A DNA stretch of 64,000 nt, from positions 186,001 to 250,000 of IMG/VR virus record IMGVR_UViG_3300047510_001118; one strand, written 5' to 3'. Shown here piece after piece: positions 3,001 through 29,338 of the stretch (positions within the stretch are counted from its first letter, which is position 1; each line of letters begins with the position of its first letter). The translations under genes were made by a program, and so were the position numbers. The stretch comes from a virus. Under the pieces are notes generated by a model. The model saw nothing but the letters and a program-made list of their open reading frames with translations, ran no database searches and had not been told where the DNA came from.

Positions 3001-6000
3001 TCTGTACTGATTGTGAATCGTGTTCCGTCTAAGATTTCCCTTATATAATAGGTAAAACCTGTAGTAACACCGCCGTAAGGTGTGCCGATAAATCTTATTG
3101 GCATATTAACAGTTAGCAATGCTGTACTAGAAACTACAATCCAGTTATCCTGCCCGCCAAATGTTTCAATAATCTGTAGTTGATTATTAGATGTATCTGT
3201 AATATTAGTTGAATAATATGTAGGTATAAATCTTATCTGTTGGTCGACGTATAGCGTACTAGTATTTCCGCTAGATAATGTAAACAATCCGCTAGAATTT
3301 TCTGTAGTACCAACATTTAACAAATCAAACGAATCTTTTACTACTGCGGCTGTTTTATTAAATGCGTTAAAATCAGCAATATATCCGTACTGTCCGGCAC
3401 CTGTGCCGCTTTGTATAAACAATCTCATACCAACGTAATTATTTGCTTCTCCTATGTCGGACTGAGCAATAGTAAAGGTTACTTCGTCTCCTGTTTGTCC
3501 GTTATTTGAGCTAACTAGATATCCTCTACCGCCCGTGCCCGTTCCGGTATCTACAATTCGTCCTTCAAATACTGCGCCGCCACGTAGTTCGTCACCGATA
3601 GCCACAGCATCTATGCCTGCTCCTGTGATTACATAGTCAGCATTAGTAGTGATATTGTTTGTTGTTGTATTAGCATAGAATGTTAACCCTGTACCAATTT
3701 GTATTTGAGCGCCATAGATTCTTGTAGTACCTGAGAATCCTAACTTTCCTCTTGGATAAATTCTAAATTGTAGATTATTATTAAAGGCATTAGTATCGTA
3801 GATTCTCATCCACAATCTATACCAGCCGTTAGGCAACTCAACTGCTCCGTATTCAACCGGGGTTAAGCCGCCACCTTCGCTGTAAGTCGTAATTATTTCT
3901 GTTTCAAAATTATAACTTACACCGCTAGATACTGTTGATGTTCCGCTAAAAATACCATATAAATCAATAAGTTGTGCGGTACCCCGTTTTACGTGTAGAC
4001 TTAGAGTATATTTTAAATTGCTGTTTGTTGGTACTGTTCCTGTAGCAGTAACCGTTGCGATAGAACTTCCTGACAGTGTTACAACTGTTATAATACAGTC
4101 GTTATCGCCATCTACACCGCCTAGTTGACTACCTAATATTCTTAATTGATTTCCTACAACATATCCGCCGCCACCAGTGTTGACTGTAACTGTATACTCT
4201 GTGGCTCCTACTACTACATCAAATAAAGAACCAATGCCAGAACCAGTGATGTTAAGAGCGTCAAGGCTAGTATAATTAGCACCTGGAGGCGCTATTGATA
4301 TATTTTGATATAGATATGATGTATCAGTATTAGATGTTAGTCCTGCTACTGTCCAAGCATTAGTTTCACCTGTTGGAGAAACTAGATTTTTTTGTAATGT
4401 AAGATTTCCATCCGAAATCCAAATACCATTTAAAAATTCGTTACTGTATTTTAGTAAATTCGTTGTTTGTTCAAAATAATTAGAACCAGCATTAGCGTAC
4501 TGCATGGACAATATTTCTGCGTTAACACCAAATGCGCTTTGAACTATAGCCTGTACTTGACTAGAACGATTATCTACTAGAGCAGTTACTGGATCTTCTT
4601 CTGGGTCAAAGCCTTCAGCAATAACACCGAAGGTACCATATGAGCTGTTACCATTAGTAGCACGGATACGTCCACCGTCTTCAGCAAAATAGCCAGCATA
4701 AGCATAGTATGAGAATACAGAAACTGCCTCAGTTAAAGAGCCTGTGCCAGTACACCAGCAACCGATACCATCGCTGATAACCTGTGTGAAGTCGTTGGTT
4801 GTGATAGATTTATTGCCACCGTTGTGTAAAGTGCCGTCGACTTTATAACCCACACAACCGTTACCAAATGTAGTTACGTTTTGTATGTAAGGGGAACGCT
4901 TCATGATCCATACAGATGTGTCATTAGGACCAGTTCCTGGATCTAAACTTACATAAGCACCGCCAGTTGGTCTGCGTGTACCAAAACTATTTGGTGCTGT
5001 TAGTGTTCCTTCTAAACCTGCTAGAGTCATGTTACGTATGCCTGTGGCATTTCTTACATAGAACATGTCTTTAAGATTATTTCCAGCATAGACTCTCATG
5101 TAACCGGAACCGTTTGGTATTGGCAATATATCCCCGCCAGGTGTAAGAGATATAGAAACATCTTTAGTCAATGTGTTGATACTTTTAACATAATATGTTT
5201 GGCCTGTAGTTATTCCGCCAAAGTCGTCGTTGACGGTGGCTGCTACGAATTGTATCGGATCATTAACTTCTAAATTTTCAACAGATTGTAATTTAAATGC
5301 GCTAACAGATGTTAGGGACAATGTTGTATAACTTATAAAAGAATTTTTAGGACGGACCACTACTCCTCTTAGTTCGTCACCAATTAAGGCAGTGTTGTCT
5401 GGAAGTGAAATAGGCAAGTCTTCAAAATAAGTTCCGGTTTTTACAAAAATAGAAGTGGTAATTCCATAGTTAGGTAAAGGAACGTTCTTAGTATTAGCAT
5501 CTTGGATAGCGGATATTAAGATATCCATTAAACTGGTTATTTCAATATATGCTGATGGTTCTGCTTGATAAGCATTGTTAAAGACCTGTGGGTCTATATA
5601 TGTAGGAGTCGGAATGATGACCCAATCTGATTCCCAGTTTTCTGCTACTCCCGGTTCTCTGCTGATGTTGTCGTTGATTAAACTAGAATACCAAAACCCT
5701 TGATAGTAAATAACATCATCTTCGTTGTAGGTATCAGTACTAATCCAAGTTCTGTTAATCTGTTGATAGTTAGTAAGAACTTCGTCTTGTTCTAACGCAT
5801 ATTGAATAATTGTTTTTAATTGTGTCAGCGCGGCCACAATATATTCTTGTGCGTCATCTGTGGCTTCATTCCTAAATGATGTTGTACTACCTTCCGCAAA
5901 AAATGCTAGAGTTGTGTATACTGTTTTACTATTACTGCCTCTAGTAATATCATATAATAGGGCATCAATTACTAATTTAGCATCTCTTTTTGTAGAAAAT

Positions 6001-24914: not shown

Positions 24915-27275
24915 TTATAACATGTTTCCAACAGAATTCCTAGTGTTTTTGGCTGTTTTACTTAGATAATCCACAGCGTCTGATTGCTGTGAAACCATTC
25001 TGCCCATGTTCATATTTAACTGATTTAATATGTCTAACATCTCTTTATCGGATGGTGCTGACATTGCTGTAGAAGATTGTTCAGCGCCTTTTGGTTTATT
25101 GTCAATAGGATTAGTTCCCTGTTGAGTTAACTTTTCCATATTGGCATTTAATTGAACAAGACTTTGAGTAAGTTTGTCCATGTTAATATTGTTTAATTCA
25201 GAAAATGCTGAAGACGTTGACATAATATTAGTCTTCAATTCTCTAAGTTTGTTATTACCGTTTTCTAAAGATACGCTGACATTTTCAGGCAATACTAGAC
25301 TAGAAAGATCAGATTTTTTAGCCGCTTCGTTTAGAGCTTCAACTTGCTTACGTGTGTCAGCCGTGGCATTAACTGTCGCCTGACGCTGTCTAACTGTTGC
25401 GTCCTCAGATGTAGATGTCGGTGTTCTTTCTGTTGCTGGTCGAGCAGGCACTGCCGGAGCAGGAGGAGGTGTGGCAGGCCTTTCGAGTGGCCTACGTGCA
25501 GCAGTTTCTAATTTAGCGGCATCCATTGCTCGACGTTGCGCAATAGTTGGTCCTCTTTCATCTTCAGGTTTTAACAATGCTTCTTTGCCCTGTTCTACTA
25601 TAACCTCTCTAACTCCAGTAGCATCAGCAATTTCATACAATGCCCAAGTAATCAATCCTATCTTAAATGTTTTCTTTAGCACTGCTTTGCCTGTGGCCAT
25701 GGCTGCTTTTAATGGAGTTTTTCCTGGTCTTGTAGGTCCTTCTGCGCCAGGCGGCAATGTTTCTCCGGCCTTTTCTCGCTGATACTTGTCATATACTTTA
25801 GAAGCGCCATAGGCTGCTAGTCCGCCTCCTGCTGCCAATCCCATCATTTCTCCGGCTATTCCTGTACCGGCTAACGCAGTAACTTTTGCCCAAGTTTTTA
25901 AATTATCAAAAGAATCTGCTAACTCTACAGCCTGGTCGCCAGCATAATTCATACCTATAGCAGTGTTATCTAATATTCCTGAATCAATAAGAGCAGATTT
26001 AAATTTGTTCTGTACTTCAGTCAGCGTTTGATCTAAGTTTGTTACTAGTCTTGTTGGATCTTGACTTTTTAGTTTGTCTTCTTGTTCTGCTTGTGCTTTT
26101 GCTAATGCAGCAGAACCGTCGCCAAGTTGCCCTAATCTAGCAGACGCTGTTATCATATTATCAGTGTTCATTGTTGTATAAACACCAACTAAATTACGAT
26201 CTTGTTTTGATCTTTCTCTCGCCGATGCGGCCGCATCATCATTGGCTTTTACCAGTGCCGCTACTGATCCAGCATTGCCTTCATACACTTCTCTAGTAAC
26301 ACGGGCCGCATCCTGACCGTTGCGTCTCATAGCCAATTGATATTCTCTGGCTTCTTTGGTAATAGCATTACCACCAGCACTGATACTATCAACCATACCA
26401 GCGGCTAATTTACCGCTAGGATCGGCTTGTTTTAATCTAGCAATTTCTGCTTGAACTTGTGCGGCTAGTTTTCCTGTAGGATCTTTTTCCATCAATGCCT
26501 GCATGGCATTTCGCATACGAAGATCTCTGGCTGCGGCTGCGTTTTGTTCATCTAATGCTTTGCGAGATACACCTGTTGCCTTGGCAAGTCTATCTAATTC
26601 TTTGTTATACTCAGCGGCACCAGCAGCCAACTGTGCGTCATCCATTCGTCTAGCCAATCCACTACGCTGCATTGTTTCCATGTAGGTAGCAGTGCCTTCG
26701 GCAATGTCATCCATTGTAAGGCCAAGTCTAGATAATTCCTTTCCTGCTCCAGCCATTACTAATCCGCTGACGCTGGCAAATTTTTGAGCACCTTCAGTGG
26801 CTGAGCCACCCATGACTGCTAAAAATTGTGAATTCTGTTGAACAGTTTTTCCAAAAACATCTAAAGGTAATCTGGCTTTGCCTGCGGCTAACTGCGCAGA
26901 CATTAGCGATTCGCCTAGATCTATACCAGTACCAGATAGTGTTCGGAATACTTGAAGATTACTGTCAAGGGTTGAACCAAAAGATCTAACAGTCTTTCCT
27001 AGACCTTCGGTGCCTATTTTTTCAGTTAAATCTGCTAGTTGTCCGCTGAAACCTGAAAGTGTTGGTGCTGTATTTGAAAATGCTTTTTCAACTAATCCAG
27101 CACTAGTTCCTATTCCTTTGTCAACTGCTCCTGCTACTGCAGGACCAGTGAATTTTCCACCAGGAGTTGGCGTACCACCGCCACTAAATGCTCCGCTACT
27201 GGAATTCTCTCTAAGACCATCACGCATTCCTTGGGCAACTGCTTGTCGTATCTGTTCAGGGGTTAAATCTGGCAT
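24915..27275 (-). CDS. Tail tape-measure protein candidate (gp29-like)
   Basis: A 786-residue protein, mostly helical and Ala-rich, with Gly/Pro low complexity at the N-terminus (residues 25-45). It has two hydrophobic stretches, ALAGTGIAGEMMGLAAGGGL at about 465-495 and FKIGLITWALYEIADATG near 545, a Pro/Ala/Thr-rich linker at about 600-630, and helical ends. Tape-measure proteins combine long helices, hydrophobic segments and a poor-similarity middle, and sit beside tail-chaperone genes; here the gp26/gp51-like frameshift pair is divergently adjacent. The protein would set tail length and be bound by those chaperones. T4 gp29 is shorter (590 residues). An internal head or inner-body protein next to the portal is the main alternative. 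Confidence 0.6.
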   Translation of the reverse strand: MPDLTPEQIRQAVAQGMRDGLRENSSSGAFSGGGTPTPGGKFTGPAVAGAVDKGIGTSAGLVEKAFSNTAPTLSGFSGQLADLTEKIGTEGLGKTVRSFGSTLDSNLQVFRTLSGTGIDLGESLMSAQLAAGKARLPLDVFGKTVQQNSQFLAVMGGSATEGAQKFASVSGLVMAGAGKELSRLGLTMDDIAEGTATYMETMQRSGLARRMDDAQLAAGAAEYNKELDRLAKATGVSRKALDEQNAAAARDLRMRNAMQALMEKDPTGKLAAQVQAEIARLKQADPSGKLAAGMVDSISAGGNAITKEAREYQLAMRRNGQDAARVTREVYEGNAGSVAALVKANDDAAASARERSKQDRNLVGVYTTMNTDNMITASARLGQLGDGSAALAKAQAEQEDKLKSQDPTRLVTNLDQTLTEVQNKFKSALIDSGILDNTAIGMNYAGDQAVELADSFDNLKTWAKVTALAGTGIAGEMMGLAAGGGLAAYGASKVYDKYQREKAGETLPPGAEGPTRPGKTPLKAAMATGKAVLKKTFKIGLITWALYEIADATGVREVIVEQGKEALLKPEDERGPTIAQRRAMDAAKLETAARRPLERPATPPPAPAVPARPATERTPTSTSEDATVRQRQATVNATADTRKQVEALNEAAKKSDLSSLVLPENVSVSLENGNNKLRELKTNIMSTSSAFSELNNINMDKLTQSLVQLNANMEKLTQQGTNPIDNKPKGAEQSSTAMSAPSDKEMLDILNQLNMNMGRMVSQQSDAVDYLSKTAKNTRNSVGNML

Positions 27276-27349: not shown

Positions 27350-28207
27350 ATGGAAAATCAAGCAGTAAACCCGTTGAAAAAATATTTTCGACAACCAAAA
27401 TTATATTTAAAATTACCTAGTTCTGGATCGTTTTATCCAGAGGGAACCTTAGAAAAAACAGACAATGGAGAATATCCAGTATTTCCAATGACTGCCAAAG
27501 ATGAAATTACTATCAAGACTCCTGATGCGTTAATGAATGGACAGGCCACTGTTGATGTTATAGAAAGTTGTATTCCCAATATTAAAAATGCTTGGGCAGT
27601 TCCATCTATTGACATTGATGCTATACTGATAGCAATTCGTATTGCCACCTATGGCGAAACTATTGAATTAGACGTAACACTGCCAAACACTACTATTATT
27701 AAAACATTTACAGCAGATTTAAGATTAGTTGTAGACAAACTAATGAACGCAGTTTTTGATACTGAAATAAAAATTAGTGACGATTTAACTGCGTTTATAC
27801 GTCCTTTAACTTATAAAGAATACACTCAGAATTCAATTAAAACTTTAGAAGAACAGAGATTATTTTCAATAGTTAATAATGATCAACTTTCAGAAGAAGA
27901 AAAACAAAAGAATTTTTCAGTAAGTTTTAAAAAAATTACAGATATCACAGTGAACACAGTTGCTCAGAGTATCACTAAAATAGTTACACCTGACGGTGTA
28001 GTAACTGATCCACAGTTTATCAAAGAATTTTTAGAAAATTCAGACAAAGATTTTTTTAATAAGTTTATTGTAGCACTAGCAGATCAAAAAGAAAAATTTA
28101 TTATGCCGCCTTTTAAAGTTCAAACCTCTGAGGAAGAACAAAAAGAAGGAGCACCAGCAGAGTTTGAAGCACCTGTAGTCCTGGACGCATCAAATTTTTT
28201 CGGGTAA
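27350..28207 (+). CDS. 26: Baseplate hub/tail assembly chaperone gp26-like
   Basis: A 285-residue protein similar to T4 gp26: LKLPSSGSFYPEGTLEKTD, FPMTAKDEITIKTPDALMNG, VIESCIPNIKNAWAVPSIDI and ILIAIRIATYGETIELDV are the conserved N-terminal blocks. In T4, gp26 takes part in hub assembly; its place next to the tape-measure candidate and the frameshifted extension fits a lambda G-type tail chaperone. The C-terminus is acidic and ends SNFFG. The final codons before the stop (AAT TTT TTC GGG TAA) form a slippery site feeding a downstream -1 frame. Perfect late promoter upstream and GGAG ribosome site. T4 gp26 is 208 residues, so this version is longer. Confidence 0.88.
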   Translation: MENQAVNPLKKYFRQPKLYLKLPSSGSFYPEGTLEKTDNGEYPVFPMTAKDEITIKTPDALMNGQATVDVIESCIPNIKNAWAVPSIDIDAILIAIRIATYGETIELDVTLPNTTIIKTFTADLRLVVDKLMNAVFDTEIKISDDLTAFIRPLTYKEYTQNSIKTLEEQRLFSIVNNDQLSEEEKQKNFSVSFKKITDITVNTVAQSITKIVTPDGVVTDPQFIKEFLENSDKDFFNKFIVALADQKEKFIMPPFKVQTSEEEQKEGAPAEFEAPVVLDASNFFG

Positions 28208-28254
28208 AGCTCTTTAATCTGCCGCTCGATGAAGCCATGCGGGTGATTAAGGGG
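28195..28254 (+). promoter_or_regulatory. Programmed -1 ribosomal frameshift signal
   Basis: The slippery heptamer T TTT TTC (28195-28201) is in the gp26-like frame. An 8-base spacer (28202-28209, containing the zero-frame TAA stop) leads to a stem: CTCTTTAATC (28210-28219) pairs completely, with three G-T wobbles, with GATTAAGGGG (28245-28254). After a 2x2 internal loop, CCGC (28222-28225) pairs with GCGG (28239-28242). Slippery type, spacing and stem strength agree with known -1 sites, and the -1 frame is open from before this site to 28431. Confidence 0.85.
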
Positions 28255-28431
28255 CTTGAAAGTGAAATCAAGTCGTTGAAGTTAGAATTATTAAAACTCT
28301 GTTGGTATATGAGAGGTGGTATTTCATTAGAAGAATGTTACAATCTATCATATGATGATCGAGCATTAATTGTAGACATTGTTAAAGAGAACATGGAAAC
28401 TACTAAGAAATCAGGATTACCTTTCTTCTAA
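28201..28431 (+). CDS. 51: -1 frame extension of gp26-like protein (gp51-like chaperone domain)
   Basis: After a -1 slip at 28195-28201, translation continues RVKLFNLPLDEAMRVIKGLE, then SEIKSLKLELLKLCWYMRGG, ending KSGLPFF at 28431. This adds 76 residues to 284 residues of gp26-like protein, a 360-residue fusion. The frame could also start internally at the ATG at 28237 (64 residues), but no good ribosome site precedes that ATG and the coding-like sequence begins before it. It is a short helical domain in the place of T4 gp51, another hub assembly protein. By analogy with lambda G/GT, the minor long form would bring tube subunits to the tape-measure/chaperone complex. Sequence identity with gp51 itself is weakly supported. 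Confidence 0.8.
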   Translation, partial: RVKLFNLPLDEAMRVIKGLESEIKSLKLELLKLCWYMRGGISLEECYNLSYDDRALIVDIVKENMETTKKSGLPFF

Positions 28432-28891
28432 CCTATATAGATGAACTACGTTCATCTGTTCTTCGCTTTCGCTCGAACTATTTCTTCTTTTCTTAACTAT
28501 TGAACTATTATTAAGTGCGAAGCACTTTAGTATTATCCAGATTGTTCAGGTCACACTTAGCCCTAGCGGGCTAAGAAAATGAACATTATCCGAGTTGCAC
28601 AATGTCACACAGCGTTATGGCATTACAGAGGCGGTCGTCCGGTACCTCGAGCCACGTCTTATCACGACGGCAGGCATATAAATGTACGCTATCACACTTA
28701 TATCCGTTAGGGAATTACCCTTCATTTAGCCTTTTTAAATTCTTTTCAAACAGCAAAACCAGTTGTATATAGGCATATCTGATCTTCGTCCTGTCAAGGA
28801 TAGTTGCTGAGTACTCTTAACGGCAAGAGAGTTTCCGTCCCTGCGACTCGTAGTCCAGGTATTAGGGCGCACGACATTGGCCTGCGCGAGC
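28432..28891. other. Convergent hairpin-rich noncoding region
   Basis: 460 bases between convergent gene sets. Three perfect hairpins occur within 140 bases: AGATGAAC/GTTCATCT (28439-28457), AAGTGC/GCACTT (28513-28527) and CTTAGCCC/GGGCTAAG (28556-28575). More pairings follow: GGG/CCC near 28710, CTCTT/AAGAG near 28814-28829 and GCGCA/TGCGC near 28867-28887. The part at 28610-28675 is richer in G and C than its surroundings. A pyrimidine-rich stretch (28480-28494) follows the first hairpins on the plus strand and may help terminate the gp26/51 transcript. Two small overlapping ORFs (28579-28710 and 28617-28772) have no ribosome site. No tRNA was recognised. A structured RNA, a two-way terminator zone or a decayed insertion are all possible. 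Confidence 0.6.
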
Positions 28892-29338
28892 TTATTGACC
28901 GTTTAATTTTGCCTGAGCTTGTTCTTGTAGGCGTTGTCGAAGTATGTTTGAACCACCCACTCTAACGTTGATAATGCCGTTATAGTATTCGTCAGATTCT
29001 AAAACTCTGCGTTCAAACTGTTCTCTTGCCTCTAAATATGACAGTTCTGCCTTGCTTTTACAGTAGTAAAGTATTTCTCTTGTGAAGTTTTCTGGACCTA
29101 ATGATTGAACATCTGCGTTTAACCTATCAGATGAGCCCCAGTATTCGCGCCAATCGCTTTCTACTGTGCTACGTCTTTTAAGTTTTTTGCCTTTGAGTGG
29201 TGGTTTAGTACGTTTGAATTGAGCTAATTTCTTGCCTATGTACTTTTGTCCAGTTTTGAGGTTAGTAATGAGATACACAAAGCCAATATGACCTTCTGGT
29301 ATTTCTTCAACTAAAGCATTTTGATAGTGCCATGACAT
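28892..29338 (-). CDS. SegE-like GIY-YIG domain protein
   Basis: A 148-residue protein with a GIY-YIG nuclease-like core: GFVYLITNLKTGQKYIGKK supplies the two motif strands (here FVY and YIG), followed by basic loops, SDWREYWGSS, and a helix AELSYLEAREQF carrying the likely metal-binding Glu, then NGIINVRVGG. The family resembles the T4 SegE-type GIY-YIG domain found in many T4-like phages. It could nick DNA in recombination or act as a homing nuclease; its stable place downstream of gp46 in the early operon argues for a resident repair or recombination role. Only a poor ribosome site is visible. Catalytic activity is inferred. Confidence 0.75.
   Translation of the reverse strand: MSWHYQNALVEEIPEGHIGFVYLITNLKTGQKYIGKKLAQFKRTKPPLKGKKLKRRSTVESDWREYWGSSDRLNADVQSLGPENFTREILYYCKSKAELSYLEAREQFERRVLESDEYYNGIINVRVGGSNILRQRLQEQAQAKLNGQ

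Follow-up and report, generated by a model that had tools for sequence, protein, structure and literature searches.

Does one gene of this phage encode, by frameshifting, what phage T4 encodes in two, genes 26 and 51? The question arises from the window analyzed here, a stretch of 64,000 nucleotides corresponding to positions 186,001-250,000 in the 278-kb virus record IMGVR_UViG_3300047510_001118. An initial annotation had proposed that a -1 frameshift signal in this window joins a gp26-like and a gp51-like tail chaperone. The evidence presented below leads us to conclude that nucleotides 27350-28431 are very probably a single tail-assembly-chaperone gene with programmed -1 ribosomal frameshifting.

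Results

Organization of the locus

The features of the locus, in window coordinates, are as follows:

27350-28207, plus strand: zero-frame open reading frame (ORF) of 285 amino acids, T4 gp26-like, predicted short isoform (TAC-N-like); PF12322, phrog_150
28195-28201, plus strand: slippery heptamer T_TTT_TTC (X_XXY_YYZ) in the zero-frame phase
28205-28207, plus strand: zero-frame stop codon TAA; the spacer from heptamer to stem is 28202-28206 (5 nt)
28207-28219, plus strand: 5' arm of the putative stimulatory 13-bp stem (fold, codon resampling, covariation)
28245-28257, plus strand: 3' arm of the same stem (fold, codon resampling, covariation)
28222-28225, plus strand: 5' arm of an inner 4-bp stem, pairing with 28239-28242 (minimum-energy fold)
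28239-28242, plus strand: 3' arm of the inner stem (minimum-energy fold)
28201-28431, plus strand: -1-frame extension, 76 amino acids plus stop, predicted helical C-terminal domain, remotely gp51-like
24915-27275, minus strand: divergent neighbor of 786 amino acids, tape-measure candidate, homologue of RaK2_00088

Inspection of the reading frames placed the heptamer at 28195-28201, in phase with the ORF 27350-28207, and the zero-frame stop shortly after it, at 28205-28207. The -1 frame is open from 5' of the heptamer through a stop at 28429-28431, so that slippage at the heptamer would yield a fusion of 284 + 76 = 360 amino acids, in which the extension joins at residue 284 (junction SNFF-RVKLF). 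In all of these respects, including predicted products of 285 and 360 residues, the initial annotation had read the sequence correctly. The stem, on the other hand, had been described as 10 bp with three wobbles behind an 8-base spacer, and this required correction: the main stem pairs 28207-28219 with 28245-28257 over 13 bp with two G-U wobbles, and because it is longer than first described, the spacer is 5 nt, which falls in the range of about 5-9 nt expected for a downstream stem or pseudoknot. The last base of the stop codon TAA pairs within this stem. The inner 4-bp stem that had also been proposed was present in the minimum-energy fold.

The gp26-like identity assigned to the 285-amino acid protein was borne out by profile searches, in which it matched the Pfam family T4_baseplate (PF12322) with 34 bits, against a curated cut-off of 24.5, and phrog_150 "baseplate hub" with an E value of 1.3e-11. 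Structure prediction for the short form with AlphaFold2 (AF2; pLDDT 83.7) gave a model whose best match in BFVD (E 5.8e-21, TM 0.87) was a T4-like baseplate hub assembly protein; a Foldseek search of the same form against the PDB returned nothing at E <= 0.001. Foldseek with region 27350-28204 also returned uncharacterized phage proteins of 507-548 amino acids from Erwinia phage Special G and from the Ralstonia phages RSF1 and RP12 (E 2.5e-7 to 3.8e-5; TM approximately 0.5 by query), which from these fold comparisons are possible distant chaperone homologues. A single PF12322 gene is present in the 278-kb record, itself possibly incomplete, and the coding capacity for a short and a long isoform at a single locus is conserved. 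By homology to T4 gp26/gp51, a role of the 27350-28431 product as a tail chaperone is probable.

Conservation of the slippery heptamer

We assembled a jumbo-type set of 88 sequences, comprising the window, the best 80 of 182 IMG/VR relatives and seven isolates (Phosso, Atu_ph07, 121Q, Paride, RaK2, BF and Munch); near-identical sequences are counted in this set, which contains 57 distinct extensions and 61 distinct sites. Close to the stop, TTTTTTC was in frame in 88/88 sequences, and each of them had a -1 extension that was complete and 72-79 codons long. Eight further isolates all had a -1 extension, of 71-82 codons; six of them carried TTTTTTC (XbC2, CBB, GAP32, Hallingskeid, Vibrio 2.275 and SCTP-2) and two had T_TTT_TTT instead, namely XacN1 and CM1, the latter from a record without annotation in which the ORF start was set from the tblastn match. 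Overall, tblastn matched 61 phage records, at one place each and every match below 60% identity, and the cassette fitted in 15 of the 15 records examined among these 61. The heptamer was unchanged among proteins with as little as approximately 30% identity to the window protein.

At all 61 distinct sites the second Phe codon was TTC, which makes up 116 of 800 Phe codons gene-wide, and the codon preceding the Phe pair, although it specifies N, T, D, H, S or R, had T as its third base in 61/61; these counts come from related sequences and hence do not represent independent events. Given that TTT TTC and the preceding T are fixed despite varied residues, decoding rather than protein appears to be conserved. 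It is this conservation that lends the heptamer its significance, as the motif by itself is not rare: the 44 window ORFs with 100 amino acids or more (spurious ORFs included) have four in-frame copies of T_TTT_TTC among their 19,601 codons. The pattern of conservation argues, at the sequence level, for programmed -1 frameshifting.

Coding constraint in the -1 frame

Of the 61 rows, 55 could be aligned without gaps, and the remaining six, which had insertions or differed in length, were excluded. In the stretch from the zero-frame stop to the ATG at 28237, differences at the first, second and third -1-frame codon positions numbered 491, 275 and 727, respectively, when tallied over 205 pairs differing by 2-35%, and the first post-slip residue was Arg in 55/55 gapless rows. 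Coding constraint in the -1 frame starts at the heptamer, 5' of any common start codon. The frame is conserved and open, lacks a conserved start near its beginning, and has a conserved mid-extension Met at +114 from the heptamer.

Profile searches with the extension gave no match in Pfam and, in PHROGs, a weak match to phrog_8170 only (E 0.015). The AF2 model of the extension was helical (pLDDT 87.8) and had no Foldseek match at E <= 0.001. In two relatives, phrog_18291, whose function is unassigned, matched the extension (121Q, locus L084, 3822-4040; RaK2, locus L086, 3825-4043).

The downstream stem

The window sequence folded with a minimum free energy of -23.7 kcal/mol (z -2.66), a stability equaled in 4/200 dinucleotide shuffles, and the pairing score of its stem was matched in 0/500 synonymous-codon resamplings of the -1 frame (z 4.9). 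By the same synonymous-codon test (p <= 0.05), a stem was significant in only 29 of the 61 distinct jumbo-type sequences and in only 26 of 75 distinct cyanophage-type sequences, which are described below; even within the window's own clade, the relative L003 had no significant stem (p 0.61). The downstream stem is not universal across relatives.

We then examined covariation in three groups, chosen with the aid of a tree built from the joined zero-frame and -1 parts. In the window clade (five rows, four distinct), 86.5% of cells were paired, double changes occurred at 4/13 pairs, and the covariation score was 0.474 compared with 0.364 in shuffles (7/500 as high). A second clade, of 11 rows, has a stem with a long loop at columns 11-26/69-84, which is absent from rows L064 and L071; this clade scored 0.242 compared with 0.135 (0/500 as high). 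The third group (columns 13-25/50-62) scored 0.193 compared with 0.153 (6/500 as high), a result that leans toward structure because its 15 rows were selected from a clade of 38 once the stems were known, with subclades bearing other stems omitted. When pairs with double changes were counted instead, shuffles were as high in 7/500 (window group), 17/500 (11-row) and 30/500 (15-row) cases; as the tool warns, kinship alone can exceed such shuffles. In all three groups, every slid register scored below the actual stem register. With regard to the expectation that the heptamer and the pairing would be kept in relatives, with compensating changes, the heptamer therefore holds (88/88 and 8/8), whereas the pairing does so in part, since it covaries in three groups but is significant in 29/61.

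Where the 3' arm falls depends on the group: the stem ends at approximately +62/63 in the window's own group and further jumbo groups, whereas a separate jumbo clade has this end at about +81 to +84 and, among the best 30 of the 75 cyanophage-type rows, 18 have it at +42 to +44. The start of the 5' arm is nearly constant across these groups. A hairpin ending at +44 in many jumbo relatives was left uncounted because codon resampling was not significant in most of them.

Counterparts in cyanophages and T4

The cyanophage-type set comprised 82 genes, i.e., the best 80 of at least 598 IMG/VR relatives together with S-RIM8 and S-SCSM1. In cyanophage S-RIM8, the same heptamer lies 10 nt before the gp26 stop, and the -1 frame enters the annotated "gp51". 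In 82/82 of these genes, T_TTT_TTC precedes the stop by exactly 10 nt, and the -1 extension was at least 45 codons long in 79/82, the others being cut by a contig end (two) or out of frame (one). Complete extensions were 61-70 amino acids long and had a motif of their own. Among the 75 distinct rows that were left when duplicates and three genes without an intact -1 extension were dropped, the second Phe codon was TTC in 75/75, compared with 243/841 gene-wide. In S-SCSM1 (L091, approximately 3175-3374), the heptamer is retained, and it is the +1/-2 frame that carries the gp51 extension; a sequencing error, a -2/+1 frameshift and an internal start are candidate explanations for this arrangement.

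T4 genes 26 and 51 are indeed separate, as the initial annotation had stated; we found them to be divergent and paralogous, both products matching PF12322 and phrog_150 and each other by BLASTP (2e-6). The long protein, gp51, covers a C-terminal part of the profile that is absent from the short gp26. All five cyanophage-type extensions tested corresponded to phrog_634 "gp51" ("baseplate hub assembly catalyst"), and by hhalign the cyanophage extension set matched the C-terminus of T4 gp51 at 92% (E 6e-7), or at 95% (E 7e-8) once Vibrio phage Bakedbeans and Cygsa01 were included. Bakedbeans shares the heptamer, and its -1 frame is open; a scan for relatives of its protein found none. In Cygsa01 (L093, 2809-2982), the gp51-like ORF (phrog_634) is separate: the heptamer is absent, and stop and start overlap as TAATG.

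The jumbo extension was collinear with the cyanophage set but weakly similar to it (hhalign 12%, P 0.0024), as it also was in a small alignment, and adding Bakedbeans and Cygsa01 raised the match to 52% (P 1.4e-4). A direct comparison with T4 gp51 was not significant (1%, P 0.04), and all extensions pooled reached 26%. Consequently, the label "gp51-like" given to the extension finds no convincing match in the direct comparison and is supported only indirectly, by way of cyanophage extensions that themselves match gp51 at 92-95%. Judged from these profiles, the jumbo extension may be remotely related to the cyanophage extension and to gp51. The statement that this phage unites the two T4 genes proved too narrow, as the cassette is common to the jumbo phages and cyanophages examined.

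Alternative explanations

The 285-amino acid protein and a small protein might instead be encoded by separate genes, the second with its own start at the ATG at 28237 (64 amino acids) or at another internal codon. Such an arrangement agrees with the separate small ORF annotated in several relatives (121Q, BF, Munch and CBB), and the homologous extension of Cygsa01 does begin at a stop-start overlap with no slippery site. On the other hand, an equivalent of ATG 28237 exists in 3/57 distinct extensions (the window, its near-twin L002 and L087), none of which has a 4-nt Shine-Dalgarno core, and before column 45 of the gapless alignment a -1-frame ATG occurs in only 13/55 rows and any ATG, GTG or TTG in 21/55. 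The in-frame ATG at +114 is common to 52/57 distinct extensions, and an internal short product from it is possible for that reason; the 4-nt core nevertheless precedes it in only two of those 52, and a start there would keep only about the last half of the conserved extension. Separate genes would, moreover, leave the invariance of the heptamer unexplained, as well as a -1-frame constraint that begins at the heptamer. We regard this explanation as very improbable.

We give a similarly small chance to transcriptional slippage, in which RNA polymerase would slip on the T6 run and produce mixed mRNAs joining the two frames. The six-T run is conserved and is preceded by AAA in many relatives, but the base that follows it is C in 88/88 sequences and in 6/8 further isolates (T7 being present in the remaining two), and a stem at the spacing of a programmed ribosomal frameshift covaries in several groups. 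Transcriptional slippage is further disfavored because in bacteria it typically occurs on longer runs, of about nine or more. The least credible alternative is that the extension is left over from a former gp51-like gene and no longer expressed, the heptamer being a coincidence: a lone heptamer is unremarkable, given its frequency in the window, but an extension that is complete in 88/88 sequences and shows third-position bias, behind a heptamer that is invariant down to approximately 30% protein identity, already contradicts it at the level of conservation. Programmed -1 ribosomal frameshifting in a single gene is the explanation that we retain.

Neighboring genes and RNA

The chaperone gene and its putative tape-measure neighbor are divergently oriented. 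The 786-amino acid neighbor (24915..27275, minus strand) matched RaK2_00088 by BLASTP (2e-9), a protein whose record notes similarity to the tape measure protein of phage phiFL4A. No resemblance was found between this neighbor and that of Phosso, Pfam and PHROGs profile searches gave no decisive tape-measure assignment, and the authors of the Atu_ph07 study assign the tape measure to another gene.

Downstream of the chaperone gene, the Rfam family RF01718 (Polynucleobacter-1 RNA) was found at 28748-28892 on the minus strand (105 bits, E 1.7e-23), directly after an ORF at 28892-29338 (minus strand) whose motif looks GIY-YIG-like. The same RNA was present downstream of the chaperone gene and on the same strand in 4/20 related loci scanned (L035, L070, L076 and L081), and the family may belong to these phages. 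Between the extension and the RNA, the window has a stretch of approximately 300 bases that is gene-free by annotation (28432-28747); the corresponding stretch is approximately 800 bases in 121Q (L084, 4044-4879), BF (L087, 4047-4849) and CBB (L177, 2247-3032).

Discussion

The initial proposal of one gene giving a short and a long isoform by -1 frameshifting is supported by three lines of sequence evidence, i.e., the conserved heptamer, the covarying stem and the constraint in the -1 frame. What the sequences show is the layout of the signal, its conservation and covariation, and the family to which the N-terminal part belongs; the slippage itself, its frequency, the isoform ratio and the chaperone role we infer, and we envisage the following course of events. 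The majority of ribosomes would stop at the TAA at 28205 and release the 285-amino acid short form. The 13-bp stem, 5 nt past the heptamer, would slow a minority, in which two tRNA-Phe would slip together from T TTT TTC to TTT TTT, and these ribosomes would read the -1 frame to 28431, producing the 360-amino acid long form with its additional helical C-terminal domain. The analogy with lambda gpG/gpGT suggests that the tape measure protein would be coated with many copies of the short form and a few of the long one, the latter recruiting tail-tube subunits through its C-terminal domain. T4 and Cygsa01 constitute a counter-case, in that they encode the equivalent protein without a frameshift, and S-SCSM1, with the heptamer but an extension outside the -1 frame, also speaks against the general reading.

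The signal may have kept its heptamer and the position of the 5' arm while the 3' arm moved repeatedly within the coding sequence; if a frameshifted single gene is also ancestral for T4-type tail chaperones, duplication into T4 26/51 would have replaced it. We put the chance of such a history at a little under even. Whatever its history, the natural series of stems at varied positions behind a constant heptamer is suited to testing what a stimulator requires.

Taken together, the data indicate that a shared T4-type tail part is read via a near-invariant frameshift site in jumbo phages and cyanophages and from two genes in T4. They also suggest a correction to the annotation of 121Q, BF, Munch, CBB, GAP32 and Phosso, in which a small "hypothetical protein" is annotated behind the baseplate hub gene: it shares the -1 frame with the extension and probably represents the C-terminal portion of the long isoform. 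The same is probably true of the cyanophage "gp51" in most sequences examined.

Frameshifting in T4-like chaperones is not claimed here as new, as it is covered by citations of Vladimirov, Gautam and Davidson (Virology 2022). As cited in PRFect (PMC10885494), that study describes a short gene and a fused long gene in some T4-like phages and, as cited in PMC12846349, poly-T slippery sequences in T4-like TAC-N genes; the citations also identify T4 gp26/gp51 (baseplate hub/hub assembly) as tail assembly chaperones. For RaK2-type jumbo phages, a full-text literature search found no such description in the titles, abstract openings and passages that it covers, a collection in which subscription papers are mostly missing. 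Word searches did not find the extension's gene number in the main text of PMC6102473, nor, in that of the CBB paper (PMC5259590), two extension gene numbers, gp26, frameshift or tape measure. In the jumbo-phage records examined, the frameshift is apparently unannotated.

Among known systems, T4 26/51 resembles the present locus in providing a short and a long protein with the PF12322 domain and phrog_150, but does so from two divergent paralogous genes, whereas here a single gene with a -1 frameshift would suffice. The cyanophage gp26 and small "gp51" (Kyanoviridae, e.g., S-RIM8) share the same T_TTT_TTC, with the extension mostly in the -1 frame; their extension is shorter (61-70 amino acids) and has its own motif, and the jumbo extension is only remotely similar to it. 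Lambda gpG/gpGT, as outlined in PMC5009743, and TAC-N/TAC-NC of the Vandenendeviridae phage Adele, for which the passages of PMC12846349 consulted give a conserved GTTTTT -1 site, likewise pair a short chaperone with a frameshifted long form. The slippery sequence of Adele differs from the T_TTT_TTC found here, and the likeness drawn here to these two systems is one of arrangement. Unlike in these systems, the chaperone gene described here is divergent from its putative tape-measure neighbor.
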